A stretch of 43,134 nt of DNA from Nanobdellota archaeon (GTDB taxonomy: Archaea > Nanobdellota > Nanobdellia > Parvarchaeales > Parvarchaeaceae): positions 1 through 43,134 of the forward strand of contig JAJZIX010000006.1 in the NCBI GenBank assembly GCA_021810345.1, written 5' to 3'. The position numbers were made by a program, and so were the translations under genes. Below are positions 8,519 to 38,252 of the stretch, piece after piece (within the stretch, counting starts at the first letter, position 1; every line of letters starts with the position of its first letter). Under the pieces are notes generated by a model. It saw only the letters and a list, made by a program, of their open reading frames with translations. It was not told the DNA's origin and searched no databases.

Positions 8519-9952
8519 ATGAGTCTCCCACGAAGATCCCAATCGGCATTGGAATACATGATGACGTACGGCTGGGCCATACTGGTCATTGTCATCGTCG
8601 CAGCAGTCCTGTATTCTTTAGGTATCTTCTCTCCTTCATCATCGTTGTCAACAACAATAACAGGCTTCTCCAATTTAGGAACAGTAAATGCAGTCTGCCT
8701 GGGAGGAACAAGCTTCACAATATCTATGGGAGACTCAACAGGTTACCCTATAAACATAACCCAAATCAATCTAACGTCCTCATCAGGCAAGACAACCTAT
8801 TCTCCAAACATCCTAATCCAGCCCAACAGCATCCAGACTGTAACGGTACCCTCATCCTCATTATGCAGCCCAGGAGCAAGGTACTCTGTTTCTGCGGTCA
8901 TATCTTACCTTGAGCCAGGACAGATCTTCCCAGGACCATATACATCGACAGGAACAGTGGCAGGAACCGCAGCTTCTCCCCCTTCTTCAGCTACTTCATA
9001 TGAGCCTCTAACAATAACCAATTCTCAGAATCAAGGAACCCCCACACCATTCCAGCAGATGATTAATGTGACAAGCAGTAGTCCAGGCTGGGCAGACATC
9101 TCCTCATCTCCTTTTGGCCAGAACGTTGAATTCTTCTCGGCGACTGGCCAGATACTCGATTCCTGGCTTGAAAACTACACGTCGGCCCATGCAATCTGGT
9201 GGGTCAAGCTGACCTCATCTATCCCCGTGGGCTCCAAGCAGATAATCTACATGGGCTTCGCCCCCACATCGACCAATCTTTTCAACACAAACAATGTAGG
9301 AGAGGCCCCTCAGTTATCTTCCACTTATGCGGAATATGATGACGGTGCAAATACCTTCCTGTATTATCAGAGATTTGGGGGGTTATCTTCTTTGCCAAAT
9401 AATTGGAGTTCAATAAGTGGTACTGTTATAACATACTATCCAATGTATATAGAAGTAGCTGCAATAACTTCCAGTACTTGGTACGGAATCTATATGAACC
9501 CTATACCCTCTTCTCTTTCATCTTCTACAACAGTATGGGAATATTATGGTAATGAGTATGATTCGAAAATTGCGGGAAGTGCGGTTGGTATAGGGATAGG
9601 TTCAACTAACGAAATATCATATGGATTTTTAGAAGGGGATAACCCGCCGAATTTAGTGTTTTTAGATAATAATAATAATGGTTTTTCCATAAATACAGGA
9701 TATTACGACACAAATGATAGTAAAATCTACACTATGGAAATAGTTTCCGGAAAGGATGTAAATATGTATGTCAATTATAAGCAAATATATTCAACAACAA
9801 GTGCGACCTCGGCAAGCCCGACATACTTTGTTATACAAAGTAGTAATAACGGTGGTACATTATCTTCTCCCATAACGATTGAATGGTTCCGTCTTCGTGC
9901 CTATCCACCAAATGGAGTGATGCCTTCCGTGAGCTTTGGAAGCGTGAGCTGA
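8519..9952 (+). CDS. Class III signal peptide (pilin-like) surface protein with DUF2341-like and C-terminal lectin-like region (copy 1)
   Basis: MSLPRRSQSALEYMMTYGWAILVIVIVAAVLYSLGIF; DUF2341-like NVEFFSATGQILDSWLENYT...IYMGFAPTSTNLFN...EYDDGANTF; end PPNGVMPSVSFGSVS. Confidence 0.88.
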   Translation: MSLPRRSQSALEYMMTYGWAILVIVIVAAVLYSLGIFSPSSSLSTTITGFSNLGTVNAVCLGGTSFTISMGDSTGYPINITQINLTSSSGKTTYSPNILIQPNSIQTVTVPSSSLCSPGARYSVSAVISYLEPGQIFPGPYTSTGTVAGTAASPPSSATSYEPLTITNSQNQGTPTPFQQMINVTSSSPGWADISSSPFGQNVEFFSATGQILDSWLENYTSAHAIWWVKLTSSIPVGSKQIIYMGFAPTSTNLFNTNNVGEAPQLSSTYAEYDDGANTFLYYQRFGGLSSLPNNWSSISGTVITYYPMYIEVAAITSSTWYGIYMNPIPSSLSSSTTVWEYYGNEYDSKIAGSAVGIGIGSTNEISYGFLEGDNPPNLVFLDNNNNGFSINTGYYDTNDSKIYTMEIVSGKDVNMYVNYKQIYSTTSATSASPTYFVIQSSNNGGTLSSPITIEWFRLRAYPPNGVMPSVSFGSVS

Positions 9953-9998
9953 TTACATTATTGTTTTAAATTTGAAAGAAATTTGGAATCTAAGCAAT

Positions 9999-10571
9999 CT
10001 ATTTGACAAAGGAAATCTTAAGTTTGCTTATTTTATTGAGCCCTTCAATCTCCTTTGATCTCACAACAATGAACAGAATGGTCGATGCTGGCCCGGTTTC
10101 AGGCGCGGATATCCTGAATTTGAAGTTCTTCGTGTCTTCTGTGTCTATTATTGATTCGCTGGACACTGAATTAAAGTATCCGTCGTCTATCTTATTGTAT
10201 ATTATCGGAAGGAAGTTGTCCCTATCCTCGAGTGTCAGGTCAAAAACCAGTGGAACGTCAAACTTGTTCGTTATCGAGACATTGAGTGTTTCCTCGTTCC
10301 CGCGCTTAAGCTCCATTGTTTCTATCGATAAACCCACTTCGACCCTTGATGAGAGCTCGTCGCCTATCCTCTCAAGTATGTCCTTTATCTTTAGCGCATA
10401 GGTTGATCTGACCAAAGCAGAATTTAGCTTGTGTATCATCGAGCTTGTTCTCTCATCGTACAAGTCCAGCATGCTGAACATTGATTCAACGTCCTCCTCC
10501 TTGATGAACCTTTTAAGTGACTCATTCAGGATCCTGCTGATCACCTTGCTGTCTTTTACGGTCAATTCCAC
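9999..10571 (-). CDS. Hypothetical protein; helical N-terminus and probable beta-sandwich C-terminus
   Basis: Complete ORF with GTG start, immediately downstream of aRF1 and codirectional. Confidence 0.6.
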   Translation of the reverse strand: MELTVKDSKVISRILNESLKRFIKEEDVESMFSMLDLYDERTSSMIHKLNSALVRSTYALKIKDILERIGDELSSRVEVGLSIETMELKRGNEETLNVSITNKFDVPLVFDLTLEDRDNFLPIIYNKIDDGYFNSVSSESIIDTEDTKNFKFRISAPETGPASTILFIVVRSKEIEGLNKISKLKISFVK

Positions 10572-10605
10572 AGATTTACTATGTTTAGGCTAATATTTAA
10601 CTTTT

Positions 10606-11691
10606 TTATGCTCCTTTTGAAGGTCTTTTGAGCAGCGCTGCAACCCCACCAAGGTTGTACAGCTGTAGGCCGTCACTTGATTCCTTTGATATGAACTCTA
10701 CGTTTATGTTCTTGTTCTTTGCCATGTAATAAAGCTCATTCTTTATTGTGTCGTCTATTCCGGATGATATCAGCAGCATGTCGACATTGTCGTTTTTCAG
10801 CTCGTTCCTTACCTGCAGTTCTCCGTAGGTTGACAGGTTGTCGTTCCTGGCTATGCTGCCCATCAATTTCTGCACAAGCTTTCTCTCTATAAGTATCCTT
10901 TCATTCTCCAGCAGATCCCCGCTTTTCTCCACAAGCTCGCGCAGGCCGCTCTCATCCGTGTAGCTTGTGCTTTTCATCCCTTTGACTCGGTTCTTTAGGT
11001 CTGTTATCAGGTACCCACTCTCAAGGAAATTGTCCTTTATTGAGCCCGGCCCGCCGATTATTATGCCAGCGAGGTTTTTGCTGAAAAACAGGTCTTTGGC
11101 GGTTTCGGCGACTTCCTTGAAGAAGTCCCTTATTAACCCTTCTCTCTCCCTAGAGAACCTCATCGCAGACTGGCCACCCTTGGAAAATTTACCAGGGACT
11201 AGCGATTTTATATGTTTAAGCGGAGTTATCCTCGCGCCTTCAAGCAACCCGAAAGTCGCTTCCCTGACATCCATGACTATAAGCCCGTATGTATTGCCTT
11301 GCTGGAAAGTGGACTTCAATGGGTCTGTTATGAACCTTTGATCGCACCTGTAAAGCCTTATGTCCAATTTTGTCGGCGGCTGCACATCCCATATCTTTAT
11401 ATCCGGCTCGCCTTCCTTGTCAGAGACATTGCCGCAGAAGATCACAAGGCCGTTCGGTGGTACTGCTTTTATCAGCTTAAGCTCATTGATTATCTTCTCG
11501 AGCGCCTCAATAACATTTTTCCTGTTGTTCCTGTCCTTTATGTTTGATGCCGTGCTCTTCTCATCCAAAAGCTGTGATCTGACTATGTCAAGGCTGAAGC
11601 CGGACGGTATATAAACCGTAACAAGCTCGGTATGCCTGCCTTTTATTCCCTCAAGGTATTTTATCAAGTTAAGAGTCTCAAATTCATCCAT
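10606..11691 (-). CDS. prf1: Peptide chain release factor aRF1
   Basis: TASNIKD (NIKS-like), YRCDQRF (YxCxxxF) and GGQSAMRFSR (GGQ) motifs. Confidence 0.93.
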   Translation of the reverse strand: MDEFETLNLIKYLEGIKGRHTELVTVYIPSGFSLDIVRSQLLDEKSTASNIKDRNNRKNVIEALEKIINELKLIKAVPPNGLVIFCGNVSDKEGEPDIKIWDVQPPTKLDIRLYRCDQRFITDPLKSTFQQGNTYGLIVMDVREATFGLLEGARITPLKHIKSLVPGKFSKGGQSAMRFSREREGLIRDFFKEVAETAKDLFFSKNLAGIIIGGPGSIKDNFLESGYLITDLKNRVKGMKSTSYTDESGLRELVEKSGDLLENERILIERKLVQKLMGSIARNDNLSTYGELQVRNELKNDNVDMLLISSGIDDTIKNELYYMAKNKNINVEFISKESSDGLQLYNLGGVAALLKRPSKGA

Positions 11692-11845
11692 ATAAACCTA
11701 AAATAGGCTAAAGAGCCAAATGCTTAGTAACCCAATGGCTGCACAGTCCTATTAAAAATGAACCAGCGATTTGCTTGTTCATATCCCTAATTAGTCGTCT
11801 TGGTTTAAAAGCTTATGACTTAATGGCGCAATACATCGAACCCAA

Positions 11846-11918
11846 TGGATCGTGAGGGAGTTGAACCCTCCATCTCTCGATTATCAGTCGAGCGCTTTAA
11901 CCGCTTAGCCAACGATCC
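11846..11918 (-). tRNA. tRNA-Ile(GAT)
   Basis: Reverse complement GGATCGTTGGCTAAGCGGTTAAAGCGCTCGACTGATAATCGAGAGATGGAGGGTTCAACTCCCTCACGATCC; anticodon loop CTGATAA. Confidence 0.92.
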
Positions 11919-12008
11919 TATACCTAATTAGGATAAGTCGCTAATTTAAATATAATTGCGGTTGTTGCATTTTTACCGTTAGAAAAGCTTATATATGACT
12001 TATGTCCT

Positions 12009-12038
12009 ATATCTATAATCGATATCGGTTTTAGATAT
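12009..12038. promoter_or_regulatory. Candidate PadR autoregulatory operator (dyad)
   Basis: ATATCTA-N4-CGATATCG-N4-TAGATAT: outer arms and inner palindrome share one centre; overlaps the padR ATG at 12037. Confidence 0.5.
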
Positions 12039-12486
12039 GGACTTTTTCACAAGCAGCACGCATAGGAGAAGCTTCGGTTTGAAGTACTGGGTACTTGGTA
12101 TGCTGTACAGGCAAGACATGAGCGGTGCGATGATAATAGATACAATGTCCCAGAAATCCTTCGGCATGTGGAGGCCTTCTCCAGGAAGCATATATCCCCT
12201 GCTTAGGGACATGGAGAACAGGGGGGAGATAAAGATGAAGAAGACTGTAGTCGGGCAGAAAATCTACGGGATAACCGATAAAGGCAAGAGGTCTTTGAAT
12301 AGCTTTGATATCCCCTTCTTTGGTAGGTTCTGGGAGTCCGACGGCTCATCAGTCTCAAGCACGATCGATTCTATGGAAGCCGATCTGGATTACTTGTCGG
12401 ATAAGTCGGAAGAGCTGAAGAAGGACAAAGAGGCGGTAAAACGCCTGAACAAGATAAAGGATGATCTCAGCAGGCTGGCGAAGTGA
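12037..12486 (+). CDS. PadR-family transcriptional regulator
   Basis: YWVLGMLYRQDMSGAMIIDTMSQKSFGMWRPSPGSIYPLLRDMENRGEIKMKK...YGITDKGK. Confidence 0.9.
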   Translation: MDFFTSSTHRRSFGLKYWVLGMLYRQDMSGAMIIDTMSQKSFGMWRPSPGSIYPLLRDMENRGEIKMKKTVVGQKIYGITDKGKRSLNSFDIPFFGRFWESDGSSVSSTIDSMEADLDYLSDKSEELKKDKEAVKRLNKIKDDLSRLAK

Positions 12487-12490
12487 AATC

Positions 12491-13465
12491 TTGGAATACT
12501 CGATTAAAGTAAAAAACCTGGTAAAAAACTACGGCGATGTAAAGGCCCTTGATGACGTTTCATTCGACGTCAGGAAGGGAGAGATATTTGGATTGCTTGG
12601 CCCGAACGGCGCCGGGAAAACCACGACGATAAAGGTTCTGACCACGCTAACGGAGCAGACAAGCGGCACAGCTTTTGTAGGGGGTGTGGACGTCCTCAAG
12701 GATCCGACCAAGGTCAAGTCCAAGATAGGCTGGATATCTGCCGATATAATCTTGGATGAGGATTTGACCGCTATGGAGAACCTTCATTTACAGGCCCGGC
12801 TGCAGAACACAAAGGATTGGAGGAAAAAAGCGGAAACGCTCCTAAAGACATTTGGTATATTGGACGCAGCCAACAAGAGAATAGGCAAGTTCTCCACAGG
12901 GATGAGGAAGAAAGTTGAGATAGCGATGTCCCTGATAAGCGATCCTGAGATAATATTCATGGACGAGCCCACCATAGGCTTGGATGTGGCGACAAGGCAG
13001 ATGCTGTGGGATCTGATAAGGGATGTGAACAAGAACCATGGTAAAACAATCCTTCTGACAACTCACTACATGGAGGAAGCAGACTCCCTGGCGGATAGGA
13101 TAGCGATAATAGACAAGGGCAAGATAGTGGCGATAGGCACCCCTTCTGAACTGAAGAACAAGGTCGGCGGGACAGTGATAGACATGGAAGTATCCGCCGA
13201 ATTCGACAAGAAAAGCGTGGAAAAGATGAAGAACGTCAAGAAAGTGGACATAAAAAACAACCATGTCATGATAACTCTACGCAATGAAAATGATGCAGTG
13301 GAGATTCTCAGGAGAATAGACCTGAAGAAAGTAACAAGCTTCAAGCTGATAAAGCCGAGCCTGGATGCCGCATTCATAAAGCTTACTGGCTCGTCGATAA
13401 ACCAGGACAATGACACCGACTACAGGAAGCTCTATTCGATAATAAGGAACAACACGAGGGGATGA
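12491..13465 (+). CDS. ABC transporter ATP-binding protein (DrrA-like)
   Basis: GPNGAGKTTTIK, FSTGMRKKVEIAMSL signature, IIFMDEPTIGLD. TTG at 12491 (LEYSIKVKNLV) is the likely start. Confidence 0.93.
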   Translation: MEYSIKVKNLVKNYGDVKALDDVSFDVRKGEIFGLLGPNGAGKTTTIKVLTTLTEQTSGTAFVGGVDVLKDPTKVKSKIGWISADIILDEDLTAMENLHLQARLQNTKDWRKKAETLLKTFGILDAANKRIGKFSTGMRKKVEIAMSLISDPEIIFMDEPTIGLDVATRQMLWDLIRDVNKNHGKTILLTTHYMEEADSLADRIAIIDKGKIVAIGTPSELKNKVGGTVIDMEVSAEFDKKSVEKMKNVKKVDIKNNHVMITLRNENDAVEILRRIDLKKVTSFKLIKPSLDAAFIKLTGSSINQDNDTDYRKLYSIIRNNTRG

Positions 13466-13466
13466 T

Positions 13467-14234: not shown

Positions 14235-14239
14235 AAACG

Positions 14240-14506: not shown

Positions 14507-14593
14507 TGGACCGAGGGGGATTTGAGCCCCCAGTCTCTCCCGTTCTAGGAAATCCTTGCAAGGGGAGCGCGTTGCCAATTGCGCCATCGGCCC
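14507..14593 (-). tRNA. tRNA-Ala(TGC) with 14-nt intron
   Basis: Acceptor GGGCCGA/TCGGTCC; CTCCC-CTTGCAA-[GGATTTCCTAGAAC]-GGGAG; T arm GGGGG-CTCAAAT-CCCCC. Removing 14 nt restores a perfect Ala anticodon arm. Confidence 0.83.
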
Positions 14594-16708: not shown

Positions 16709-17416
16709 ATGGTTGATAGTAAAAACGGCGTAAAGCTTGCGGACAATGTACATGAGATAAATCTTGGACAGGTAAAAGCCTTCCTGATAGAGATGAAGGA
16801 TGGAGGGTTGATACTCGTCGACACTGGGCTGCCGAACAGCGAGAAGAAGATCATCAGTTACATAAACAGCATAGGTAAGTCAGTTTCCGATATAAAATAC
16901 ATATTCCTGACGCACTCGCATGTGGATCATTTCGGCAGCGTGTACATGCTACAGAAACTTACAGGGGCCCATATTGGTATACAGCAGAACGGCATAAAGT
17001 TCATAAATGGCGAGGCAGGGGTGCTTTTGCCGAAGCCAAAGCAGCCAACACAGTTCAAGACAAAGCTCATGATATCCTTGATGAAAGTGGCATTGAAAGT
17101 AAGCAAGCCAAAGTTTATCAAGCCGGATATAGCGCTGAAGGAGGGGATCCTCCCGGACAACATGGGCGTAAACGTCAAAATACTAGAGACTCCCGGGCAT
17201 TCATCCGATTCTGTGTCGATATACCTGCCTGATTCTAAGATCGTTATCGTTGGGGACCTGCTATATGGAACCCAGAGCAAGCTTGTTGCACCCGAGTTTT
17301 TCGAGGATTACATAACATTGATGAACAGCGTGAACAAGATAAAAGCCCTGGGCCCGGATGTTACCGTATGCGTTTCCCATGGAAAGGACCATACCGTAGC
17401 TGATATAGACATCTGA
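16709..17416 (+). CDS. MBL-fold metallo-hydrolase
   Basis: FLTHSHVDHFGSVY, ETPGHSSDSVSIYLPDSKIVIVGDLLYG, CVSHGKDH. Confidence 0.88.
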   Translation: MVDSKNGVKLADNVHEINLGQVKAFLIEMKDGGLILVDTGLPNSEKKIISYINSIGKSVSDIKYIFLTHSHVDHFGSVYMLQKLTGAHIGIQQNGIKFINGEAGVLLPKPKQPTQFKTKLMISLMKVALKVSKPKFIKPDIALKEGILPDNMGVNVKILETPGHSSDSVSIYLPDSKIVIVGDLLYGTQSKLVAPEFFEDYITLMNSVNKIKALGPDVTVCVSHGKDHTVADIDI

Positions 17417-17420
17417 ACTT

Positions 17421-20120
17421 TCAGTTCCAGAATTCGCGGGTTTCTATGTAGTTCTTCTCGGCTTCTATGACTTTGTCGATAAGTTCGTCCTGGCTCTTGC
17501 TGTAGCTTGCAAGGATCCTGCTTGCAGTGGCCGGGCCAACACCATATGAGGCACCGACTATGCATGCTTTGCCGCTGTATGCCAGGTAAAGCGCGCCACT
17601 CTGCTTTATGCTGTCGAATATCCCTTTCTCCTCCTTTGTTAATTGCTTGTTTTTAAGTCCCTTGGTTATTATTGGCTGGTACACATCCTTGTACTTCGCT
17701 TTGTAGAAACCTATATACTTGGAGTGGCATTTCCTGCACTGCAGACCGTCTGCATCGCCCGCATTCATCTCGCCAATCTTGTATCCGCAGTTAAGACACT
17801 GCAGCTCCATTCTGGTAGCTTTGAGCCTTTCAATCACCATCTCCCTGAGCGCTTTCTTCGCCTCCTCCGGTTTCATTATCGACCCGCCATATGTATTCTC
17901 CAGGCCTTCGTAAGTCAATGGGGAAGCGGGGCCGTCGTTTATCGTGACTTTTATACTTCCATCCTTTATCCCTTTGAGCACGTCGACTAGCCCTTTGAAG
18001 TCTATCTTATCCCTGAAAAGTTCATTGTAGGTTTCATCTTCGATTATACTGCCCTTGTACATGTCAATTAGCGTGCGGAGGTGCATTTTTGTGAAATCCG
18101 CATATTTGTTTATGACTCCCATCCTCTTTGCTACATTTAGGAACCTGTACTCATAAAGGGAGGTGCGGCTTAGTCCTTCCTTTACTAGCGTTTCTGGGTC
18201 ATCTATCGTCGAGATTATACTCTGGAGCTGTTTCAAGGGGAAAAGTATCTTTACTATGACCCTGTACGGGTCTATCTTGGTTATAACGCTCTCACCCGTG
18301 GCCATTGATATCTTTGCCGATAGGGCTTTTGAAAACGCCTCATTGACCTTATTACCAAAAGTTGAGTGTATAACTGCATATTCACGTACCCTCTCTATCA
18401 GGATATTGTGCTTGTCTGGAATAACAAAGTTGTCATTCTGCTCCTGTAGCACGGAAAACTTGCTTGCATACCGATGCCTCAGCTCGCCGGCTGCCTCCGC
18501 CACGAACCTATGGACCGGCATAAGCTCTCCCTCCCACGCAGGTATTGCACCAATTGAATTGTGCGCCCTTATCACACTGATCTTAGATTGCTCAACCTTG
18601 ACTATCTTCCATGTCTCTCCACGCATCACGAAGCTCTCCCCTTCTTTTCCGTGCTCTGCAACGAACTCTTCATCAAGCACGCCCATCCTCTTGTTCAGCT
18701 GCGAATCTATCACAAAGTAAGTCTTGCGGTTTGGTATTGAGGAGATGTTGCTTATATAGAACAAAAGCCCCCTCCTCGTGCGCACAAGGCCGTCTCCGTA
18801 GTATCTCAGCATGTAATGCTTGATCAGGAAATCAAGCGTGCTGTTGAAAGTTTTTTTATCCAGATCCTTGTAGGCGTATGATCTCTTTATCAGCGCATAA
18901 ATATCTGCCTGCTTTGTAATCCCCTGCATTACGATTCCGACTATCTGGTGCGCCAATATATCGAGGCTTCCCATAGGGAGGTTTATGACCTCGAGCTTGT
19001 TTTCCTGCCTGCATTTCTCTATTGCCTGGCTTTCGAGGTAGTCATCGACGTTTATTGTCAGTATCTTGCCTACTGCAATGCCTTCCTGTCTGTGATTTGA
19101 CCTGCCAACCCTTTGGATCAGTTTTATCACCTGCCTCGGAGACATATACTGTATCACCAGGTCTACATCGCCTATATCTATCCCCAGCTCCAGCGAGCTC
19201 GTTGCTATCATCAAGTCTATGTCCCCTACCTTGAACTTGTTCTCTATCTCCATGCGCACTTCCTTGGAAAGCGAGCTGTGGTGGACCTCCATCTTCTTGT
19301 CTTTTAGGAATTTCGCAAGCCTGGACCCAAGCAGTTCAGCGGTTTCGCGCGTATTTGTAAAAATCAAGGTAGATTTTGAGCTGCTTATCTCCTTTTCTAT
19401 ATACCTTAAAGAGGTGGCAACGATCTCGTTTACTTCCTGCTTTTTTGCTACGTTTTCATCTCCTTCCTCAATGCTCGGATAGATCACTTTTACGTCATAT
19501 TTTTTGTCTCCTTCGAATGAGATGCTTTCCGTGCATCCAAGGAATCTTTTGGTCTCTTCAAAGTCGCTTATCGTCGCACTTATGCCTACTATCTGGAAAT
19601 CTGCTATGGTCTTCAGTCTCTCTAGCCCGACGCTGAACTGCGTTCCCCTCTTTGATTCCATAAGGCTTTGGACCTCATCCACTATCATGAACTTCAGGTT
19701 CTTCATGTGCTCCATCATCTTTTTGCTTAGGAACATAGATTGGAGCGTTTCAGGTGTGGTTATAAGGCAGTGCGGAGGCTGGCTTACTTGGTTTGCTCTT
19801 TCGTAGGCTGAGGTGTCCCCGTGCCTTACGTCTATCTCCACGCCGAATTTGTTGCCTATATTTATTATATTCTTAAATACGTCCCTGTTGAGAGATCTTA
19901 GCGGAGTGATGTATAATAACTGTACTCCCGGCTTGTCTATATCTATCCTGTCGAGCATCGGTAGAAACGCCGCCAACGTTTTTCCGTACCCGGTTGGTGC
20001 TCTTATCACTATGTTTTTTCCCGATGCTATGCTCGGGATCACTTCCTTTTGTATTCTTGTCAGCTCGGTGAAGCCAAAATCAGTTATTATCTTTTGTAGT
20101 TTTGGCGATAGAGTTTCCAT
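17421..20120 (-). CDS. lhr: Lhr-type DEAD/DEAH helicase with zinc-ribbon
   Basis: APTGYGKTLAAFLP, IVDEVQSL, GISATISD, QRVGRSNHRQEG; zinc-ribbon CLNCGYKIGEM...CRKCHSKY. METLSPKLQKI is the likelier start. Confidence 0.88.
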   Translation of the reverse strand: METLSPKLQKIITDFGFTELTRIQKEVIPSIASGKNIVIRAPTGYGKTLAAFLPMLDRIDIDKPGVQLLYITPLRSLNRDVFKNIINIGNKFGVEIDVRHGDTSAYERANQVSQPPHCLITTPETLQSMFLSKKMMEHMKNLKFMIVDEVQSLMESKRGTQFSVGLERLKTIADFQIVGISATISDFEETKRFLGCTESISFEGDKKYDVKVIYPSIEEGDENVAKKQEVNEIVATSLRYIEKEISSSKSTLIFTNTRETAELLGSRLAKFLKDKKMEVHHSSLSKEVRMEIENKFKVGDIDLMIATSSLELGIDIGDVDLVIQYMSPRQVIKLIQRVGRSNHRQEGIAVGKILTINVDDYLESQAIEKCRQENKLEVINLPMGSLDILAHQIVGIVMQGITKQADIYALIKRSYAYKDLDKKTFNSTLDFLIKHYMLRYYGDGLVRTRRGLLFYISNISSIPNRKTYFVIDSQLNKRMGVLDEEFVAEHGKEGESFVMRGETWKIVKVEQSKISVIRAHNSIGAIPAWEGELMPVHRFVAEAAGELRHRYASKFSVLQEQNDNFVIPDKHNILIERVREYAVIHSTFGNKVNEAFSKALSAKISMATGESVITKIDPYRVIVKILFPLKQLQSIISTIDDPETLVKEGLSRTSLYEYRFLNVAKRMGVINKYADFTKMHLRTLIDMYKGSIIEDETYNELFRDKIDFKGLVDVLKGIKDGSIKVTINDGPASPLTYEGLENTYGGSIMKPEEAKKALREMVIERLKATRMELQCLNCGYKIGEMNAGDADGLQCRKCHSKYIGFYKAKYKDVYQPIITKGLKNKQLTKEEKGIFDSIKQSGALYLAYSGKACIVGASYGVGPATASRILASYSKSQDELIDKVIEAEKNYIETREFWN

Positions 20121-20154
20121 ATAGAGATTTAAATCAGCAGCGCTAAGATTATTT

Positions 20155-21390
20155 ATGGTGTCCAAGCTTAATAACATTATCAACAGAGCGTACAGGGAGT
20201 TTGTCCCAAAAAAGGCGAATGAACTTAAGGTTACGAAGATAGCCGACAAGATCAGAAGTTATTTGGATAGCTCTCTGAAGCGGCTCGGCATAAGCGCAGA
20301 GATAGAATTTGGCGGGTCTTATGCGAAGAACACCTGGATAAATAAGGAGAGCGACATAGACATATTTGTAATTTTCAACTCAGAAGCAGAGACTAAATTA
20401 CTCAAAAGACTAGTCCCCAAGTCTTTCATGGAAGCACATGGAAGCAGACTCTATTTTAGGGGAAAAATCAGTGGCATAACCATAGAGGTTGTCCCGCTTG
20501 TAAAGTTTACTGACAGGTCAAAAGTGGAAAACTCTATAGATCTGTCGATTCTGCACGAGAGATATATTAGGGATAAGCTCAGTGATAATCTGAGGAAGGA
20601 CGTAATAATACTAAAGCGCTTCTGTAAGGCTAATGACTGCTATGGCTCGGAGACCTACAAGCATGGCTTCTCCGGTTATGCTTTGGAGCTTCTGGTAATA
20701 AACTATGGGGGGTTTGTCCCTCTGTTGAAGGCAGTGGATTACTGGTACCAGGATATGGTGATAGACATCGGCGGGCATTACAATAGCGAGGCCCAGGCGC
20801 GTTCAGCAATCGGAAAGCAGGAAGCCCCCATGGTGCTTATTGATCCGACAAACCCTAAGAGGAACATATGCGGCTCCCTCAACCAGGACAACTTTGTGAA
20901 ATTCATCTTTGCGTGCAAGAGGCTTTTGGTTTTTCCCTCATTCTCGATGTTTCAGAATCATGACATGGAAAAGGAGATCAAAAACCTATCAAAAGCGAGG
21001 CGATCCAAGCTATTCATTTACGAGACGAAGATCCTGGAGCCAAGAGACACTTTCCTTTCAAAATACAACAAGGCGCTGGATAGGCTGCTCCGCGAGCTGA
21101 GCGCAAATGACGTAGAAATATACAGTTGCAATGTGGATTATGGTACGTCAAAGGCGAAGCTTTTTCTAGAGATAAAGAATATCCCATCGACCGCAGCCAG
21201 GCCAGTTTCTGGGCCTAAAGTTTGGTTAGAGTCGAAGAAACTGGGCGATTTTCTAAAGGTCCACAATGAAGTTTATTTAAGAGGTGACAGCCTCTATTAT
21301 GACAAGAAATACGGAATAAAAAACTTTAATATAGCTATAAAGACAAGTATTGTAAAATACATGTCTGAAAAGGCTGTGTTAAAAATTTGA
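20155..21390 (+). CDS. cca: CCA-adding enzyme (archaeal class I tRNA nucleotidyltransferase)
   Basis: FGGSYAKNTWINKESDIDIFVIF nucleotidyltransferase motif; ILKRFCKANDCYGSETYKHGFSGYALELLVINYGGF. Confidence 0.93.
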   Translation: MVSKLNNIINRAYREFVPKKANELKVTKIADKIRSYLDSSLKRLGISAEIEFGGSYAKNTWINKESDIDIFVIFNSEAETKLLKRLVPKSFMEAHGSRLYFRGKISGITIEVVPLVKFTDRSKVENSIDLSILHERYIRDKLSDNLRKDVIILKRFCKANDCYGSETYKHGFSGYALELLVINYGGFVPLLKAVDYWYQDMVIDIGGHYNSEAQARSAIGKQEAPMVLIDPTNPKRNICGSLNQDNFVKFIFACKRLLVFPSFSMFQNHDMEKEIKNLSKARRSKLFIYETKILEPRDTFLSKYNKALDRLLRELSANDVEIYSCNVDYGTSKAKLFLEIKNIPSTAARPVSGPKVWLESKKLGDFLKVHNEVYLRGDSLYYDKKYGIKNFNIAIKTSIVKYMSEKAVLKI

Positions 21391-21462
21391 GCCCGAATAG
21401 CTCAACGGCAGAGCATTTGGCTGTTAACCAAAGGGTTGCAGGTTCGAATCCTGCTTCGGGCG
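21391..21462 (+). tRNA. tRNA-Asn(GTT)
   Basis: GCCCGAA/TTCGGGC acceptor; TTTGG-CTGTTAA-CCAAA; T arm GCAGG-TTCGAAT-CCTGC. Confidence 0.94.
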
Positions 21463-21511
21463 CTTAGACTCTATGTGCTTGTTTCTCTGCTACTTGTGGT
21501 CAAGATATATA

Positions 21512-22699
21512 TTAGGAAAGCCCAGTATCCTGGTAATTACTTGTAAACAGAACATCTGAAACAATTCCATTTTTATTATTTCCGCTGTAATCGACAGCTG
21601 AACCATTCAAGGGCCAAAATACATCTATATCCATTCCGCCAATGGGCTTACCGGTTAATCCACTTATATATAATTGTTTTATTTGTGCAGGCGAAAGAGA
21701 ACTGTTATAGTATTGAAAGTTACTAACAAAACCATCTATTGTAGATACTATACTTGGGGTATTATCTGAGGCGTAGACGCTAGTGGGATGCCCATTTGGA
21801 TAACCTAAATAAAAACATACACTGCCAGGCGGCCAGCTTTCTGCCCCCGTATTAGATGAAACTAAATCCCCATCTATATACAAAGAATCATTATCAGTGG
21901 CGTTGTTATAAGACAGAACTGTATAGTACCATTCTCCTTGGTGTACACTTGGACTTACAAGGTCAGGAAGACTCCATACTGATCCCCAGATAACTCCTGA
22001 GTTTAGGCCTAAGGGTGACATAGAGCCTGTGCAAAGTAATTGAATGAAGGGCTGCACAGAATTCACATTAGATATTGAATTCATATAAACCCACATCGAA
22101 AATGTTTTTGGTGAATTCGTTTCCATAGCTAAATTACTTATTTCTATTGTGCTTATCGGCGAACTACCCCCATCGGTTGAATTTTGACCAAAGAATTCAG
22201 CTACATATTTCGGTAAAATTAAAGAAGAAGACGTTCCAGAAACCGTTCCACTCGAGATATATGGTCCCGGGAATGTCTGACTTGGTTCAGTGTAGTTTAC
22301 CGTCACGGCCAGAGAATAGCGCGAGCCTGCTGCCGGACAGATGTTTGGAACTGAGAATATATAACTCGAAGTAGGCTGGATTATTGGATTTGGGTCCACG
22401 GTTGAATTTGGCTTAAATGTAGATATCTGGCCCGTGGATGATTTTGCTGTGACGCTGGTGATATTTATAGGATAACCTGTCGAGTCCCCTAAGCTTATCC
22501 TTAATATTCCATTAGCAGTGCACTCTCCAGTAACACTGCCCAGATTGGAGAAACCGATTACTGTTGAGGACAATGAGGATGCTGGAGAAAATATCCCCAG
22601 ACTGTATAAAACACCTGCAACTATAACAATGACAAGTATGGCCCAGCCATAAGTCATCATATACTCCAGTGCTGATTGGGATTTTCGTGGTAGACTCAT
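21512..22699 (-). CDS. Class III signal peptide surface protein with LamG-like domain (copy 2)
   Basis: MSLPRKSQSALEYMMTYGWAILVIVIVAGVLYSLGIFSP; FSMWVYMNS..., SLYIDGDLVSS, VFWPLNGSAVDYSGNNKNGIVSD. Confidence 0.85.
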   Translation of the reverse strand: MSLPRKSQSALEYMMTYGWAILVIVIVAGVLYSLGIFSPASSLSSTVIGFSNLGSVTGECTANGILRISLGDSTGYPINITSVTAKSSTGQISTFKPNSTVDPNPIIQPTSSYIFSVPNICPAAGSRYSLAVTVNYTEPSQTFPGPYISSGTVSGTSSSLILPKYVAEFFGQNSTDGGSSPISTIEISNLAMETNSPKTFSMWVYMNSISNVNSVQPFIQLLCTGSMSPLGLNSGVIWGSVWSLPDLVSPSVHQGEWYYTVLSYNNATDNDSLYIDGDLVSSNTGAESWPPGSVCFYLGYPNGHPTSVYASDNTPSIVSTIDGFVSNFQYYNSSLSPAQIKQLYISGLTGKPIGGMDIDVFWPLNGSAVDYSGNNKNGIVSDVLFTSNYQDTGLS

Positions 22700-22896
22700 A
22701 TGATAGAGAAGGCAAGAGGAAATAAATAGTTTTAATCAGAAAGGCAAATTCTAGAGAGAAGTAAGTTTCGCTCTATTTTGATGTGCGACTTAGGTTTTAT
22801 TATCTTGGAAGATTTAGATATAATGAATTTTATTAGAAGTATAAACGAAAAGAGACCTTAACTAATTAAATCCGTTCCACTTCGGGTGCTTATCTT

Positions 22897-28414: not shown

Positions 28415-28533
28415 CCCTGCGTAGCCCAATGGTAGAGCGACCGGCTGTAGAATTGCCAAGTGCTGTTTAAGTGCGATGAAGGGTTTCAGCTGCGGTCACC
28501 GGTAGGTTGCGGGTTCGAGTCCGGCCGCAGGGA
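28415..28533 (+). tRNA. tRNA-Tyr(GTA) with about 47-nt intron
   Basis: C1-G72 acceptor CCCTGCG/CGCAGGG, a feature of archaeal tRNA-Tyr; ACCGG-CTGTAG-[intron]-A-CCGGT; T arm GCGGG-TTCGAGT-CCGGC with one G-G mismatch. Confidence 0.85.
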
Positions 28534-33278: not shown

Positions 33279-33336
33279 TTTTGTTTTTAACCCGGGTAGT
33301 TGAAAGATATTTAACCATCAAAAGGCTATCTAAATT

Positions 33337-33558: not shown

Positions 33559-33646
33559 CATTGTTTCAAGAAGAAGGCAGCTTATCCGCTCCAACTGCGG
33601 AAAGCATGAAAATGCTTATAAATAGGAGTAAGTATATAAAATTGCT

Positions 33647-33841
33647 ATGGAAAAGAACAGCAGCGATAACAAGCTTTTCAGCATGTTCCCGCAGATGTTG
33701 ATGGGTTTTCTGGGCGGAAGGAACAAGAAATTCTCTTTCAGCTTGGACAACCTCGAAGTGCATCTGCCAAACATCAAGGAGCCAATAAAGTTGTCTGGTA
33801 AAATAACCATAGATTTTTCGAAGCAGAAAGACAAGAAGTGA
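33647..33841 (+). CDS. Small protein of unknown family (paralog B)
   Basis: FSFSLDNLEVHLPNIKEPIKLSGKITIDFS matches paralog A. Confidence 0.65.
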   Translation: MEKNSSDNKLFSMFPQMLMGFLGGRNKKFSFSLDNLEVHLPNIKEPIKLSGKITIDFSKQKDKK

Positions 33842-33844
33842 ACT

Positions 33845-34360
33845 ATGGCAAAGATAAGACCGGGAAGAGCATACAGAGAACTCAAGATGGCCTACACGCG
33901 CAAGTCAAAATACAAGCGCCTGAGCTACATAAAGATAGCACAGAAGCCTAAGATAACCCAGTACCATTCTGGCGCAGTTTCAAAACAGTTCGGAAAGAAG
34001 GTCGTTCTGCTTTCAGAGATATCATGCCAGCTAAGGGAGAATGCTATAGAAGCGGCAAGGATAATAGCCAATAAGTACCTCACGGATACTATAACCGATC
34101 AGAATTTTCATATAATAGTTGTTGCTTACCCACATCAAGTCCTTAGGGAACACAAGCTTGCGACAGGGGCCGGTGCAGACCGATTCTCGTCCGGGATGCA
34201 GAAGTCGTTTGGAAAGCCAGTAGGCATGGCCGCGCGGCTTATGGCTGGCAGCAGGATATTCGAGATACACGTAGATGAGGCAAATATCATAAGCGCCAAA
34301 ACTGCAGCCCAGAAGATGGGCAAGAAGCTTGGCATAAGGACCAGGGCAGTAATACTCTAA
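33845..34360 (+). CDS. rpl10e: Ribosomal protein uL16 (L10e)
   Basis: MAKIRPGRAYRELKMAYTRKSKYKRLSYIK...; GADRFSSGMQKSFGKPVGMAARL. Confidence 0.94.
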   Translation: MAKIRPGRAYRELKMAYTRKSKYKRLSYIKIAQKPKITQYHSGAVSKQFGKKVVLLSEISCQLRENAIEAARIIANKYLTDTITDQNFHIIVVAYPHQVLREHKLATGAGADRFSSGMQKSFGKPVGMAARLMAGSRIFEIHVDEANIISAKTAAQKMGKKLGIRTRAVIL

Positions 34361-34884
34361 AAGAAGTCCTCTTTGAATCCGACTTTCTGATTCAGCCACC
34401 TGAACAGCACAAAGAAAAAGGAGGACAGCCTGTTTATGTACGGTTTTATCGCTTCATTGCCGCATTTTATCGCGGCTAAAGCCCTCTCGACGCGCCTAGT
34501 CTGCGTGCGGCATATGTTTACTGATGTCGCTGCCTGCGTGCCATTTGGATAGACAAACCTGTTAGTGTCTTTCAATTCTTGTGAGTAAGAATCCGTGAGC
34601 GCCTCAAGTTTTTTAACAGAATCAGAGGATATGGGGTTTACTCTCCTGTTCTTGACCAGTGGCAGATACCCCGATAGCTCAGCGCTGATAAGGTAAAGGT
34701 CTGATTCTATCGATTTCAAGTCCTCCTTTATTTTATTGTCTTCTATTAGTGAGTAGGCCGCACCGATTTTGGCCGATAAATCATCAATCTCCCCTATAAC
34801 CCGGACCGTTTTATTATCCTTCGGAACCCTGCCATCTGCAAGTGACGTTTTTCCATCATCACCTTTTCCAGTGTAGTATTTCAT
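34357..34884 (-). CDS. Cob(I)alamin adenosyltransferase, PduO type
   Basis: YYTGKGDDGKTSLADGRVPKDNKTVRVIGEIDDLSAKIGAA; TSVNICRTQTRRVERAL. Confidence 0.92.
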   Translation of the reverse strand: MKYYTGKGDDGKTSLADGRVPKDNKTVRVIGEIDDLSAKIGAAYSLIEDNKIKEDLKSIESDLYLISAELSGYLPLVKNRRVNPISSDSVKKLEALTDSYSQELKDTNRFVYPNGTQAATSVNICRTQTRRVERALAAIKCGNEAIKPYINRLSSFFFVLFRWLNQKVGFKEDFF

Positions 34885-35228
34885 ATAGCGTCGTCTTTGA
34901 CATTATCTGGGTTTTTCAGGAGGTAGTATTTCGCTTTCCTCCTTATACCATCTATGTAAACCCTGAAAAGGTCATACGATAGGTGGTAATAGACGGACCT
35001 GCCCCTGTGCTCCGAGACCAGGATCACACCGAACATCGGCGAAAGAAGGTTGTAGAAGTGCTTCTTGTCTGACTGAGAGTTCAAATCTAAACCAAGTGCT
35101 GCTGAAAGCTCGTCCCTGCTCATTTCGCCCTTTTCTCTAATTAGGTTTATTATCTTCTCTGCTTCCGCGTACAGCATTTTACTCTTTGGGTGATTCCCGT
35201 ATATGACGTAAAGCAGGTCTTCCATCAA
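34881..35228 (-). CDS. Winged-helix-like hypothetical protein
   Basis: IINLIREKGEMSRDELSAALGL suggests HTH; overlaps the adenosyltransferase start (ATGA). Confidence 0.6.
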   Translation of the reverse strand: MMEDLLYVIYGNHPKSKMLYAEAEKIINLIREKGEMSRDELSAALGLDLNSQSDKKHFYNLLSPMFGVILVSEHRGRSVYYHLSYDLFRVYIDGIRRKAKYYLLKNPDNVKDDAI

Positions 35229-35301
35229 TTATATATAGGTCTCGCCTATAAAAATACTTGCTATAGGTATCTTATTTATATAACAAAATGCTATCAATTA
35301 A

Positions 35302-35967
35302 ATGGCGTTGAACGAGAACAAAATATTCGGTGACAGCTTTGTGCTGCTTTTCAAGGACAGGTTGATTCTAGTTCTTGCGCTTCTGCTGACGGCCATAGAT
35401 GCAATCTTTCAGTTTGTTACCGATTCATTCAATATCTCAAATTCTTTTTATACCGGGATATATGCCATGTTGCTGCTGGTTATACTAGCGCTTTTCAGTG
35501 TGTTTGTATATGGAATCGTCTTCTTTAGGCTTGGAGGCGGCAAGAATCTTAAGCTGTCGGATCTTGCGAAGATGTCCGCAAGCCGCTATCTCAGCATACT
35601 GGCAACCTACGTGCTGACCGGCTTGATAGTCGGTTTGGGAACAATGTTTTTTGTGATTCCAGGGATTTACCTGTTCGTCAGGCTTTTCATTGCGCCGGTT
35701 TCGGCCGCGCGCGATAAGAAGAATCCGCTCGATGCTTTGAGCAAAAGCTGGAGCATGACAAAAGGTCAGGGCTGGCCAATATTCATAATTACACTGCTTG
35801 TTGGGATAATCCTGCTTATAATAGATGTTGGCGCAAGCATGGCAGGGGTCTCATTTATATCCACATTCTTTGGTTTTGCGATGGTAATAGCATCAGTGCT
35901 GATTTATAACGGCCTATCAAGAAAGAAGATCGCGTCCGTCAAGCGCACCCGCCATGCAAGCCGATAA
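35302..35967 (+). CDS. Multi-pass membrane protein, unknown function
   Basis: Several TM segments; FVIPGIYLFVRLFIAPVSAARDKKNPLDALSKSWSMTKG. Confidence 0.7.
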   Translation: MALNENKIFGDSFVLLFKDRLILVLALLLTAIDAIFQFVTDSFNISNSFYTGIYAMLLLVILALFSVFVYGIVFFRLGGGKNLKLSDLAKMSASRYLSILATYVLTGLIVGLGTMFFVIPGIYLFVRLFIAPVSAARDKKNPLDALSKSWSMTKGQGWPIFIITLLVGIILLIIDVGASMAGVSFISTFFGFAMVIASVLIYNGLSRKKIASVKRTRHASR

Positions 35968-36017
35968 AGCGCTTCTGCTCTAAGCTCATCTTTAAATATG
36001 ACTTGATTTCTAATAGC

Positions 36018-36623
36018 ATGATGGGATACAGCCTCGAGGAAGTTTTGCTTGATTCTAGGAAGCTAATGAGCTATGTGTTAAAAAGACCGGAAATAAGCGC
36101 AAAGTTGTCTATTTTCTCCCTTGTGTATAGAAAAGAATATGATCCCTCTTACCTCTCACTGGACATGGTTGACAACTCGCTTGCAAGAAAGCATTCATAC
36201 TTGAATGTTGATCCAAATAGGCCAACTGATTATATCTCTGTGCTCAGCAATACAATTCCTTCCTGGACGCTGTCTCTTTCAGAAGGGGACGATTCGGAGG
36301 AAATTTTTGGTAAGGATTTTCATAATGAGAAAACAGGACATAGAATCCCAGTCATGGAACTTATAACAGAAGTGCTCAAAAAGGTAGAAGAAGAGCAAAC
36401 AAAATTAAACTCACCTAAATTTGCATTTTCGGTTAGTATGAAATTTACTTCTAAAGCTGATCTTGACTACCGCAGGGAGTATATTGTTCCTGAAGCGAGG
36501 GAAACCTCCGATGGTATAAAGACTTGCTGGCATATATACCCTGCAAAAAGCGGCAGAATATTTGTTATAGAACACCCTCATTCGTTTAATTTGTACAATG
36601 ATGCAGTATTTTATAAAATGTGA
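36018..36623 (+). CDS. Hypothetical protein
   Basis: Complete ORF; ATG at 36018 preferred over TTG at 36003. Confidence 0.5.
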   Translation: MMGYSLEEVLLDSRKLMSYVLKRPEISAKLSIFSLVYRKEYDPSYLSLDMVDNSLARKHSYLNVDPNRPTDYISVLSNTIPSWTLSLSEGDDSEEIFGKDFHNEKTGHRIPVMELITEVLKKVEEEQTKLNSPKFAFSVSMKFTSKADLDYRREYIVPEARETSDGIKTCWHIYPAKSGRIFVIEHPHSFNLYNDAVFYKM

Positions 36624-36842
36624 GCCGGGAAACCCATAATTTGGATCACTCTCATAGATGAAATTCATGTCCACGGACCAAATGCCCTAGTGGAGCACAT
36701 GTGCTTCACTGTTTTTTGCTGTTAGCTGACATATTCAGGATAGCTCCTGCGAGCAGATCGTTTGAAGCCGCTACCATAACGTGGCCTTTGCTCTTCACTG
36801 GTTTGATGAAAACTATTTATCTACTCTCTTTTTCTTTAGTAT

Positions 36843-38252
36843 ATGAGTCTCCCACGAAGATCCCAATCAGCATTAGAGTATATGATGACTTATGGCTGGG
36901 CCATTTTGGTCATTGTCATCGTCGCAGCAGTCTTATACAGTTTAGGTATCTTCTCTCCTTCATCCTCGCTGTCAACGACAATAACAGGCTTCTCCAATTT
37001 AGGAACAGTAAATGCAGTCTGCCTGGGAGGAACAAGCTTCACAATATCTATGGGAGACTCAACAGGTTACCCTATAAACATAACCCAAATCAACCTAACG
37101 TCCTCATCAGGCAAAACAACTTATTCTCCAAACATCCTAATCCAGCCCAACAGCATACAGACAGTGACAGTCCCTTCATCATCATTATGCACTTCAGGAG
37201 CAAGGTATTCTGTTTCTGCGGTCATATCCTACCTGGAGCCAGGACAGATCCTCCCAGGACCTTACACATCAACAGGAACGGTGACAGGAACTGCAGCTTC
37301 TCCTCCTTCCTCAGCTACTTCATATGAACCCTTAAATATAACCAACACCCAAAACCAGGGCACTCCTTCACCATTCCAGCAGATGATTAACGTCACCAGC
37401 ACCAGCCCAGGCTGGGGAGACATATCCTCATCTCCATTCGGCCAGAATGTCGAATTCTTTTCTTCAACAGGCCAGATACTTGATTCCTGGTTAGAAAACT
37501 ACACTTCAACCCGTGCTATCTGGTGGGTAAAGCTGACTTCCTCGATTCCAGCAGGCTCCAAGCAGACAATTTACATGGGTTTCGCCCCCACATCAACCAA
37601 TCTTTTCAACACAAACGATGTAGGAGAAGCTCCACAACTTTCAACGACTTATGGAGAATACGATGACGGTGCAAATGTATTTAACAACTACTGGAACTTT
37701 GCTGGGACAAGTTTTCCGACTGGATTTACTAATTATAATAATGGTGGAACATCAACAGTGGATAACGGACTAAATATAAGTTTAGCAAGTTCTGGAAACT
37801 ATTACGCTTTTGTTTATAATACCGCAATAAGCCCAGATTCAATTGTTGAAACTTATTCTACTGGAAAAAGAACTAACGGTCCTACTGACCTTGGGGCGTA
37901 TCCCTCAAATAGTGAAAGTGTAACTGGGTTTGCAGGAGTAGCTAACACTTGGGGTTGGGGATATGGAACTATAAGTGGGGGATATGGTAACATAGGCAAC
38001 CCATTTGATATAAGTTCGGGAAGCGGAGTAGCAAGTATATATTGGATTGGAACCGGAGATGAAGGTGTCGGATGGAATTACGATTTTGTTAGTTCTACTT
38101 ATTCAATTACAATACCTTCTTCTATATATTTATCCATCGGTATGGGTAATAATTGCGGTAGTAGTGATTTAGTTTATTATTGGCTTCGCACACGTACCTA
38201 CCCTCCAAACGGTGTTATGCCTTCCGTGAGTTTTGGAAGCGTTTCTCAATGA
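36843..38252 (+). CDS. Class III signal peptide surface protein with DUF2341-like and C-terminal lectin-like region (copy 3)
   Basis: N-terminal ~278 aa nearly identical to copy 1; unrelated middle; shared end PPNGVMPSVSFGSVS. Confidence 0.88.
   Translation: MSLPRRSQSALEYMMTYGWAILVIVIVAAVLYSLGIFSPSSSLSTTITGFSNLGTVNAVCLGGTSFTISMGDSTGYPINITQINLTSSSGKTTYSPNILIQPNSIQTVTVPSSSLCTSGARYSVSAVISYLEPGQILPGPYTSTGTVTGTAASPPSSATSYEPLNITNTQNQGTPSPFQQMINVTSTSPGWGDISSSPFGQNVEFFSSTGQILDSWLENYTSTRAIWWVKLTSSIPAGSKQTIYMGFAPTSTNLFNTNDVGEAPQLSTTYGEYDDGANVFNNYWNFAGTSFPTGFTNYNNGGTSTVDNGLNISLASSGNYYAFVYNTAISPDSIVETYSTGKRTNGPTDLGAYPSNSESVTGFAGVANTWGWGYGTISGGYGNIGNPFDISSGSGVASIYWIGTGDEGVGWNYDFVSSTYSITIPSSIYLSIGMGNNCGSSDLVYYWLRTRTYPPNGVMPSVSFGSVSQ

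Follow-up and report, generated by a model that had tools for sequence, protein, structure and literature searches.

The window, the whole 43,134-nucleotide stretch of DNA analysed here, contains three genes that begin alike and end differently, which raises the question of what their common part is and how different C-termini came to follow it. The source genome is a 670-kb metagenome-assembled genome (MAG) of an archaeon that is probably host-dependent, and its named relatives are likewise MAGs, of Parvarchaeota and Nanoarchaeota. Our answer is that the genes probably encode modular type IV pilins, run as a recombining and horizontally exchanged adhesin repertoire. Modular pilins are a known kind of protein, and in our best reading it is the recombining, dispersed repertoire that is added here.

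A common pilin module and its heads

Translation gives open frames of 477, 395 and 469 aa for the three genes, with the boundaries that the initial annotation had assigned (Table 1), and all three start with MSLPR[R/K]SQSALEYMMTYGWAILVIVIVA[A/G]VLYSLGIFSP as it had reported. That annotation took the shared part for a constant secretion module with a QxSxE class III signal of family PF04021. The constancy stands, although the shared part extends beyond a signal to an entire pilin domain of ~150 aa. The type of signal was also read correctly: [K/R]SQSALEYMMTYGWAILVIVIVA is present in all copies, with Glu at +5 when Q is counted as +1, although the motif is QSALE and not strictly QxSxE. The PF04021 profile matches none of the window genes and nothing over cut-off in the source genome, and was dropped as the defining domain.

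Table 1. Positions of the pilin genes, their parts and neighbouring sites in the window.
Feature	Position	Strand	Basis or remark
Copy 1, modular pilin, 477 aa	8519..9952	+	Translation, DNA comparison
Copy 1 promoter-like element (R)AAAACTATTTATTYAYTC, shared start of homologous unit	8484..8502	+	
Copy 1 pilin module, helix aa 10-33 and beta domain to ~aa 153	8519..8977	+	AlphaFold2, conserved columns
Copy 1 DUF2341 region, Pfam stretch aa 200-260	8996..9328	+	Pfam, AlphaFold2 model
Copy 1 variable head, predicted ConA/L-type-lectin-like jelly roll	9344..9895	+	DNA comparison, Foldseek
Copy 1 conserved C-terminal cap AYPPNGVMPSVSFGSVS	9896..9949	+	86% DNA identity with copy 3
Copy 2, modular pilin with LamG head, 395 aa	21512..22699	-	
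Copy 2 pilin module, aa 1-153	22241..22699	-	63% aa identity to copy 1
Copy 2 LamG head, Pfam stretch aa 185-341	21677..22147	-	Laminin_G_3, E 2.1e-9
Copy 2 promoter-like element	22716..22734	-	
Copy 3, modular pilin, 469 aa	36843..38252	+	
Copy 3 promoter-like element	36808..36826	+	
Copy 3 pilin module	36843..37301	+	AlphaFold2 model, Foldseek 8fk7
Copy 3 DUF2341 region, Pfam stretch aa 200-251	37320..37652	+	28.2 bits
Copy 3 variable head, predicted lectin-like jelly roll, sequence unrelated to copy 1	37677..38192	+	
Copy 3 conserved C-terminal cap	38193..38249	+	
tRNA-Asn(GTT), 3' end towards copy 2	21391..21463	+	
tRNA-Glu(CTC), 3' end towards copy 3	38283..38357	-	
Empty site between convergent genes 16709-17416 (+) and 17421-20249 (-)	17417..17420		Pilin gene there in L063, L123, L232

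The features expected of a modular type IV pilin are found together. The signal is of class III type, in which a short, charged leader is followed by Gln/Phe at +1, by Glu at +5 and by a hydrophobic helix, and a pilin fold, which rests on models of middling confidence, precedes the extra domain. The helix at aa 10-33 is present in the AlphaFold2 models of both copies 1 and 3, and Foldseek matches the copy 3 model to the archaeal type IV pilus subunit of Pyrobaculum (8fk7; prob 1.00, TMt 0.50). The extra C-terminal domains (Laminin_G_3, DUF2341/jelly roll, beta-propellers) are unspecific to pili. A pilus ATPase and platform protein are encoded in the same genome (T2SSE, PF00437, and T2SSF, PF00482, on contigs C13 and C20), as is a prepilin peptidase (Peptidase_A24, PF01478, on C17), all over cut-off, and a stand-alone 158-aa version of the pilin is encoded there too. 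A promoter-like element lies upstream of 11 of the 13 copies listed from this genome; its three matches in the window are all at the three pilin genes, against 0.02 expected, which excludes chance.

By Pfam the heads are DUF2341, Laminin_G_3 and lactonase/NHL/YncE propellers, and they fall into three classes: DUF2341 with an L-type-lectin-like jelly roll, LamG, and beta-propeller. The LamG-like domain reported for copy 2 is confirmed by Laminin_G_3 (38.1 bits, cut-off 27.6) after the first ~150 codons, which places a ConA-like jelly roll there; in copies 1 and 3 such a fold is indicated by models of middling confidence (mean pLDDT 64.5 and 62.7, with the heads partly below 50). Of the DUF2341-like domains given to both of these copies, that of copy 3 scores above the Pfam cut-off (28.2 vs 23.4) and that of copy 1 just below it (22.8). 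Their C-terminal regions, described as unrelated, are so in sequence, although AlphaFold2 and Foldseek indicate that they probably have one lectin-like fold in common: the best match of the copy 1 head by E-value is the Emp47p lectin domain (prob 1.00), the copy 3 head matches Emp47p lectin domains and also ERGIC-53, and the predicted secondary structure elements come in the same order in both.

From three copies in the window many more had been expected genome-wide, and this proved to be so. The N-terminus occurs at 16 places in the source genome, 13 of the 16 being intact genes, and 6-25 times in each of 11 same-genus genomes, with 0-2 copies per genome in other families of the class.

These parts suggest how the proteins would work. 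The carrier is a complete pilin with leader, alpha-1 helix with Glu at mature position 5, and beta domain, and its C-terminus bears a head, most often a lectin-like beta sandwich. Prepilin peptidase would cut before the Gln, and the products would be built into a type IV pilus as its minor or tip components. The heads would bind ligands, perhaps glycans or glycoproteins of other cells, with an archaeal host as the most plausible partner, and shuffling of heads would then alter partner specificity. Alternatively, the pili could serve DNA uptake or general biofilm attachment, with heads that bind DNA or matrix and not a host. In Methanococcus maripaludis, a DUF2341 protein encoded beside pilin genes was a repeated hit in a transformation-defect screen (PMC10133366), and DNA uptake would also fit the frequent horizontal exchange described below. 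However, so many unrelated propeller, LamG and L-type-lectin-like heads suggest many ligands, a variety that DNA binding does not need, and we consider this alternative unlikely. A role in DNA uptake is compatible with adhesion as a second function.

Genomic sites and movement between species

Loci were collected by a peptide-pattern search, and the sample thus consists of close relatives of the pilin family described here. Where a tRNA gene adjoins a pilin gene, it turns its 3' end to it in 20 of 21 cases, compared with 32 of 92 controls, although the tRNA-Glu loci are orthologous and these are therefore not 21 independent events. Pilin genes also occupy gaps between convergent protein genes, and these two kinds of site are the ones that they prefer. 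The initial annotation had named the same head at each orthologous position as the finding that would speak against a repertoire; this was not seen, and at the tRNA-Glu(CTC) site the relatives have a different head, an inverted gene or no pilin gene. Polymorphism among relatives extends to the tRNA-Asn and convergent-gene sites, and at the copy 1 locus the relatives with usable flanks have no pilin gene, which shows gain or loss but not its direction. Between species, identity at fourfold synonymous sites is 0.57-0.86 for the pilin genes as against 0.23-0.34 for neighbouring genes; the pilin genes are thus far younger between species than their neighbours, which indicates horizontal movement. 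In two other genomes, copy 2 homologues that lie elsewhere than at the tRNA-Asn locus have a remnant of tRNA-Asn with them. Whole pilin genes, then, move between loci and between species.

Could the pilin genes be carried by an element dedicated to mobility or diversification, such as a tRNA-targeting integrase, a plasmid or virus, or a diversity-generating retroelement? The tRNA 3' end is the usual attachment side for archaeal integrases, and the orientation of the adjacent tRNAs, the polymorphism of the sites and the tRNA-Asn remnants on copy 2 homologues would all agree with this. However, neither Phage_integrase (PF00589) nor the reverse transcriptase RVT_1 (PF00078) has a match in eight genus genomes, in searches whose controls gave matches, and for no gene does a duplicated tRNA end on its far side rise above chance, so that a tRNA-targeting integrative element and a diversity-generating retroelement were both rejected. 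Carriage by a virus or plasmid was rejected likewise, since the peptide pattern of copy 1 found no related stretch in IMG/VR viral contigs, and searches of phage records for copy 2 and of plasmid records for copy 1 gave no match. Some occupied sites, moreover, lie between convergent protein genes, and we regard a dedicated element as quite unlikely. With neither an integrase nor a reverse-transcriptase family found in the genus, the most likely route of exchange is ordinary homologous recombination, in which the constant arms pair with DNA from outside; that this DNA is taken up through the pili is speculation.

Genealogies of pilin and head

Starting 37 bp upstream of the ATG and continuing to around codon 276, copies 1 and 3 share 87% DNA identity; beyond that point DNA similarity is gone over ~540 bp and returns at 86% identity for 50 bp at the 3' end. 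Copy 2 shares 63% aa identity with copy 1 over aa 1-153 and none beyond. Pili are common virus receptors, and the heads might be variable decoys against viruses or predators that use pili in this way, with binding secondary; escape at a receptor would also give a hypervariable outer part on a constant carrier. Yet many genes coexist in one genome and the head classes are recognisable binding folds and not random surface loops, which makes decoys a very unlikely explanation.

The heads could also have come to differ with no recombination at all, if after duplication they diverged fast under positive selection while pilin and cap remained under purifying selection. The common order of secondary structure elements and the lectin fold matches of the copy 1 and copy 3 heads, which are probably distant homologues, would accord with this. 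But amino acid selection leaves the age of synonymous sites unaffected, and in 46 pairs with the same pilin and different heads, identity at fourfold sites is 0.64-0.67 in the pilin and 0.59 in DUF2341, compared with 0.27-0.34 in the head, where chance is 0.28. The head stays at chance even on confidently aligned conserved columns (0.27 on conserved LamG columns only; n=365). In pairs with orthologous heads the pattern is reversed (head 0.72, pilin 0.51), heads that are 83-90% identical sit on pilins just 70-85% identical, and genes with the same head do not form pilin clades; such clades are rejected for the copy 2 head (p-AU 0.0047) and for the head of C15 (p-AU 0.014). Pure accelerated divergence of the heads was rejected on these synonymous ages, and the explanation without recombination is highly improbable.

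The mosaicism first proposed is thus borne out by synonymous-site ages and clade tests, and also by genome-specific homogenisation of the 5' end, where third positions of the helix region cluster by genome (0.61 vs 0.44, which shuffles never came near). Pilin and head have different genealogies, and recombination at or near the pilin-head junction accordingly puts new heads on a constant carrier. The cap has a fourfold identity of 0.63 in the DUF2341 type and an intermediate 0.40 in the LamG type, so that only the former gives clear evidence of a double exchange. It is extremely improbable that the mosaic is an artefact of metagenome assembly or binning, even though contigs break at pilin repeats (the ends of C18, C9, C2 and C22), the pilin copy of the relative L055 is frameshifted and, all genomes compared being MAGs, binning errors could inflate some cases, L055 most, because a single 43-kb contig contains all three window genes, whose flanks are unique, a given head recurs on different pilins among independently assembled genomes (the copy 2 head in four) and the divergences are far above sequencing error.

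A probable recombining repertoire and its known counterparts

The proposal of a combinatorial repertoire, with exchangeable heads on a constant anchor, is therefore supported, with the amendments that the anchor is a pilin and that whole genes also move between species. In the recombining adhesin repertoire that we favour, each unit begins at its own promoter-like element, and the DUF2341 type undergoes a second exchange before the conserved C-terminal cap. A fuller picture, possible but somewhat doubtful, is that the genus keeps a cross-species pool of lectin-headed pilin cassettes, which land at tRNA 3' ends or in promoter-free gaps, have their 5' ends gene-converted within each genome and their heads swapped between pilin arm and cap, possibly with DNA imported by the pili, and so track host surfaces as these change.

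In the antigenic variation of Neisseria pilin, a constant N-terminus is followed by a variable C-terminal part through gene conversion from silent cassettes. Here, in contrast, no silent-cassette store with one expression locus is seen, nearly all copies come with an intact frame and a promoter-like element of their own, and the differences span whole domains and not short loops. A close parallel is offered by Streptococcus sanguinis PilB and PilC, modular pilins in which a binding domain is grafted C-terminally onto a complete N-terminal pilin; PilC has an Ig-like domain and a ConA-like lectin with demonstrated glycan binding, and bacterial modular pilins have a wide variety of architectures (PMC8179133, PMC9934059). 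The pilin, DUF2341 and predicted lectin-like head described here closely resemble PilC, although they are archaeal, with at least a dozen copies dispersed over a 0.67-Mb genome where S. sanguinis has a fixed pil operon, and their heads recombine and their genes move between species. The bacterial survey used the bacterial pilin signature IPR012902, and the word 'archaea' is absent from its text (PMC8179133).

DUF2341 has been found together with archaeal pili before, in proteins of type IV pilus loci that were compared with PilY adhesins and proposed to sit at the tip (PMC4858521), but those are large proteins inside the pilus loci, whereas here DUF2341 is fused to a pilin and the genes lie dispersed, apart from the machinery. 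The ARMAN-2-related Mia14 likewise shows a LamG expansion in a small host-associated DPANN archaeon, some of its LamG-like jelly-roll proteins being tied to type IV pilus loci, although it belongs to another lineage, and the passages considered here mention neither a constant pilin as fusion partner nor any exchange of heads or preference for particular sites (PMC5498576). VARTIG of Thermococcales also joins a constant part to a recombining C-terminus, hypervariable by between-species recombination, and its authors report having found nothing closely comparable in other archaea (PMC8416519). It differs in domains and carrier, VARTIG being encoded at gene islands and not a pilin, and the genes described here do not encode a large Ig-domain protein with a hypervariable C-terminal Ig domain.

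How DPANN archaea choose and hold their hosts is an open question, and most of them cannot be cultured. Recombining lectin-like pilins offer concrete candidates for recognition molecules, open to expression and testing without culture of the archaeon. With them, the idea of modular pilins would reach the archaea, in a form that is genome-wide and horizontally exchanged, and VARTIG would be joined by a second archaeal surface protein diversified by recombination.

Modular pilins in the window and across the genus

The initial annotation placed three surface-protein genes in the window, and both their coordinates and their translations are borne out. The profile does not support its assignment of their N-terminus to PF04021; the motif [K/R]SQSALE is compatible with a type IV prepilin in which Gln takes position +1 and Glu position +5. 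At the DNA level, copies 1 and 3 are 87% identical over a stretch that begins 37 bp upstream of the ATG and runs to about codon 276; no similarity is seen over the next ∼540 bp, and 86% identity resumes over the final 50 bp. Copy 2 has only the first ∼150 codons in common, with a LamG domain thereafter.

AlphaFold2 models of copies 1 and 3 (mean pLDDT 64.5 and 62.7) have the same layout of a helix (10–33), a pilin beta domain, a DUF2341 beta region and a beta-rich head. Searched against solved structures, copy 1 matches the Emp47p lectin domain best by E-value; copy 3 matches the Emp47p and ERGIC-53 lectin domains, and its pilin region matches 8fk7, a pilus subunit of Pyrobaculum. Because strand order is identical in the two modeled heads and both match Emp47p, these sequence-unrelated heads probably have a common lectin-like fold. 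Pilus machinery genes in the genome comprise two T2SSE/T2SSF sets and a single Peptidase_A24.

The prediction of many more copies genome-wide held: this 670-kb MAG, of which the window is contig C21 and whose closest named records are Candidatus Parvarchaeota and Nanoarchaeota MAGs, has 16 places with the N-terminus (E up to 1e-3). Of the 13 intact copies, five carry DUF2341 plus a head, five LamG, one a beta-propeller and one another head (708 aa in total), and one is a bare pilin. The count is 6–25 per genome in 11 genomes of the genus. Eight genomes belonging to other families of the class have 0–2, mostly with open frames of 114–168 aa that amount to bare pilins; the expansion is thus a feature of this genus. 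What stays constant in the family is the whole pilin. Heads also occur on other anchors, including a non-pilin transmembrane N-terminus (Table) and, in a gene split across contigs C9 and C2, one beginning with GQSSLEYLIVVG. The C9 end and C2 start are probably one giant gene, split by assembly, that couples several DUF2341/lectin heads to another class III anchor.

Exchange of heads

If the heads were merely evolving fast, without exchange, synonymous sites should be equally young in head and pilin. We compared gene pairs with a pilin identity of 85% or more but a head identity of 45% or less, 20 of LamG type and 26 of DUF2341 type. At fourfold-degenerate sites, identity in the pilins is 0.67 and 0.64, respectively; it is 0.59 in the DUF2341 region of the latter type, and 0.27 and 0.34 in the heads, where codon usage predicts 0.284; in the conserved C-terminal cap 3' of the DUF2341-type head it is 0.63. 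Fast evolution alone is therefore rejected. As a control for misalignment, restriction to columns conserved across LamG heads leaves the head value at 0.27 (n=365). Ten pairs with orthologous heads give 0.72 in conserved head columns and 0.51 in pilins, so the reverse incongruence also exists, some heads being younger than their pilins. Pilin DNA rejects a single clade for genes with the copy-2 head (p-AU 0.0047) and for those with the head found on contig C15 (p-AU 0.014).

The helix region groups by genome, with third-position identity of 0.61 within and 0.44 between genomes (difference 0.17; highest shuffled value 0.026). The helix nearest to that of copy 1 is in a LamG gene on contig C7, and a copy-2 homologue in L087, a stretch from a relative, has a helix matching its own genome's. 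Such clustering is the signature of gene conversion at the 5' end.

Insertion sites and movement between species

Of the tRNAs lying no more than 200 bp from a pilin gene, 20 of 21 face it with their 3' end; near other genes the figure is 32 of 92 (Fisher p 2e-7). These counts are partly non-independent because some tRNA cases are orthologous. Pilin blocks also favor convergent gaps (34/82 versus 170/1113 other gaps, p 5e-8), and site occupancy is polymorphic among relatives. Each unit begins with a common promoter-like element, (R)AAAACTATTTAT, which precedes 11 of the 13 own copies listed and, in the window, occurs nowhere besides pilin units.

The genes have moved horizontally. Between the genomes compared, synonymous sites of flanking genes are saturated (0.23–0.34), and pilin genes reach 0.57–0.86; in L087 a pilin at 0.59 adjoins a gene at 0.29. 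Copy-2 homologues in L055 and L087 have no intact tRNA-Asn nearby, and directly downstream lies a tRNA-Asn 3' end (L055) or a whole degenerate tRNA-Asn (L087). Judging from these remnants, the copy-2 gene was copied from a tRNA-Asn-linked position; the true tRNA-Asn locus (L063) of the L055 genome lacks any pilin.

Table. Pilin-family genes, remnants and insertion sites (C, contigs of this genome; L, individual stretches, mostly from relatives).
Location	Strand	Feature
Window 8519-9952	+	Copy 1
Window 21512-22699	-	Copy 2, adjoining tRNA-Asn(GTT)
Window 36843-38252	+	Copy 3, at tRNA-Glu(CTC) site
L054		tRNA-Glu(CTC) site: same pilin and DUF2341, other head
L056		tRNA-Glu(CTC) site: more divergent gene
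L082		tRNA-Glu(CTC) site: two genes
L116/L193		tRNA-Glu(CTC) site: gene inverted
L189, L190, L192, L194		tRNA-Glu(CTC) site: without gene bearing this N-terminus
Window 17417-17420		4-bp gap, empty; filled in L063, L123, L232
L123:5173-8154		994-aa modular pilin with long head, filling the 17417 site; sole Pfam matches of head, Cyclin_C and CLP_protease, judged implausible
L055:10001-10900 (relative JAJZNV)		Copy-1/3-type gene, frameshift near codon 240; suggests decay of some acquired copies, or sequencing error
C7:53986-54120, C7:34597-34644		Remnants of pilin N-termini, 49-51 bp past the tRNA-Pro/tRNA-Leu 3' ends; probably scars of lost copies
C17:6640-8895 (L159:4641-6893)		DUF2341/lectin heads on non-pilin transmembrane N-terminus (MNRKSQVISIFFAVFLIIAVLSIIG)
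L166:5838-8069 (C9 end), L168:27-2708 (C2 start)		Peptide GNTGNALRFTTGSSEAVTTVDMFTSTSLPN common to both ends
Window 14507-14593	-	tRNA gene found by Rfam, missed by default ARAGORN; probably intron-bearing
Window 28415-28533	+	As preceding

Possible mechanism and function

A dedicated mobile or diversifying element is unlikely, since neither integrase nor reverse transcriptase was found in the eight genus genomes searched and the genes lack end duplications. The queries tried gave no viral, phage or plasmid matches, and Phage_integrase (PF00589) has no match in eight genomes of the genus, most of them incomplete MAGs; absence of even a XerA-like recombinase would, if real, be unusual. For the mosaicism established above, we infer homologous recombination between the constant arms, with insertion presumably tolerated at points that spare promoters.

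Modular pilins, LamG expansion in DPANN archaea and recombining archaeal surface proteins such as VARTIG (PMC8416519) are each already known; no description of them combined, as lectin-headed archaeal pilins that are spread genome-wide and exchanged horizontally, came up in the open-licence literature searched. Modular pilins are common across bacteria (PMC8179133), and DUF2341 has been assigned to archaeal pilus tips by analogy (PMC4858521) and recovered in a transformation screen (PMC10133366). A functional precedent for lectin-headed pilins is the glycan-binding PilC of S. sanguinis, which joins a pilin to Ig-like and ConA-like lectin domains (PMC9934059). Pili-like contacts between ARMAN cells and Thermoplasmatales have been reported (PMC5864196, PMC5498576). 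The heads may be displayed on a pilus, where they would bind glycans of partner cells.
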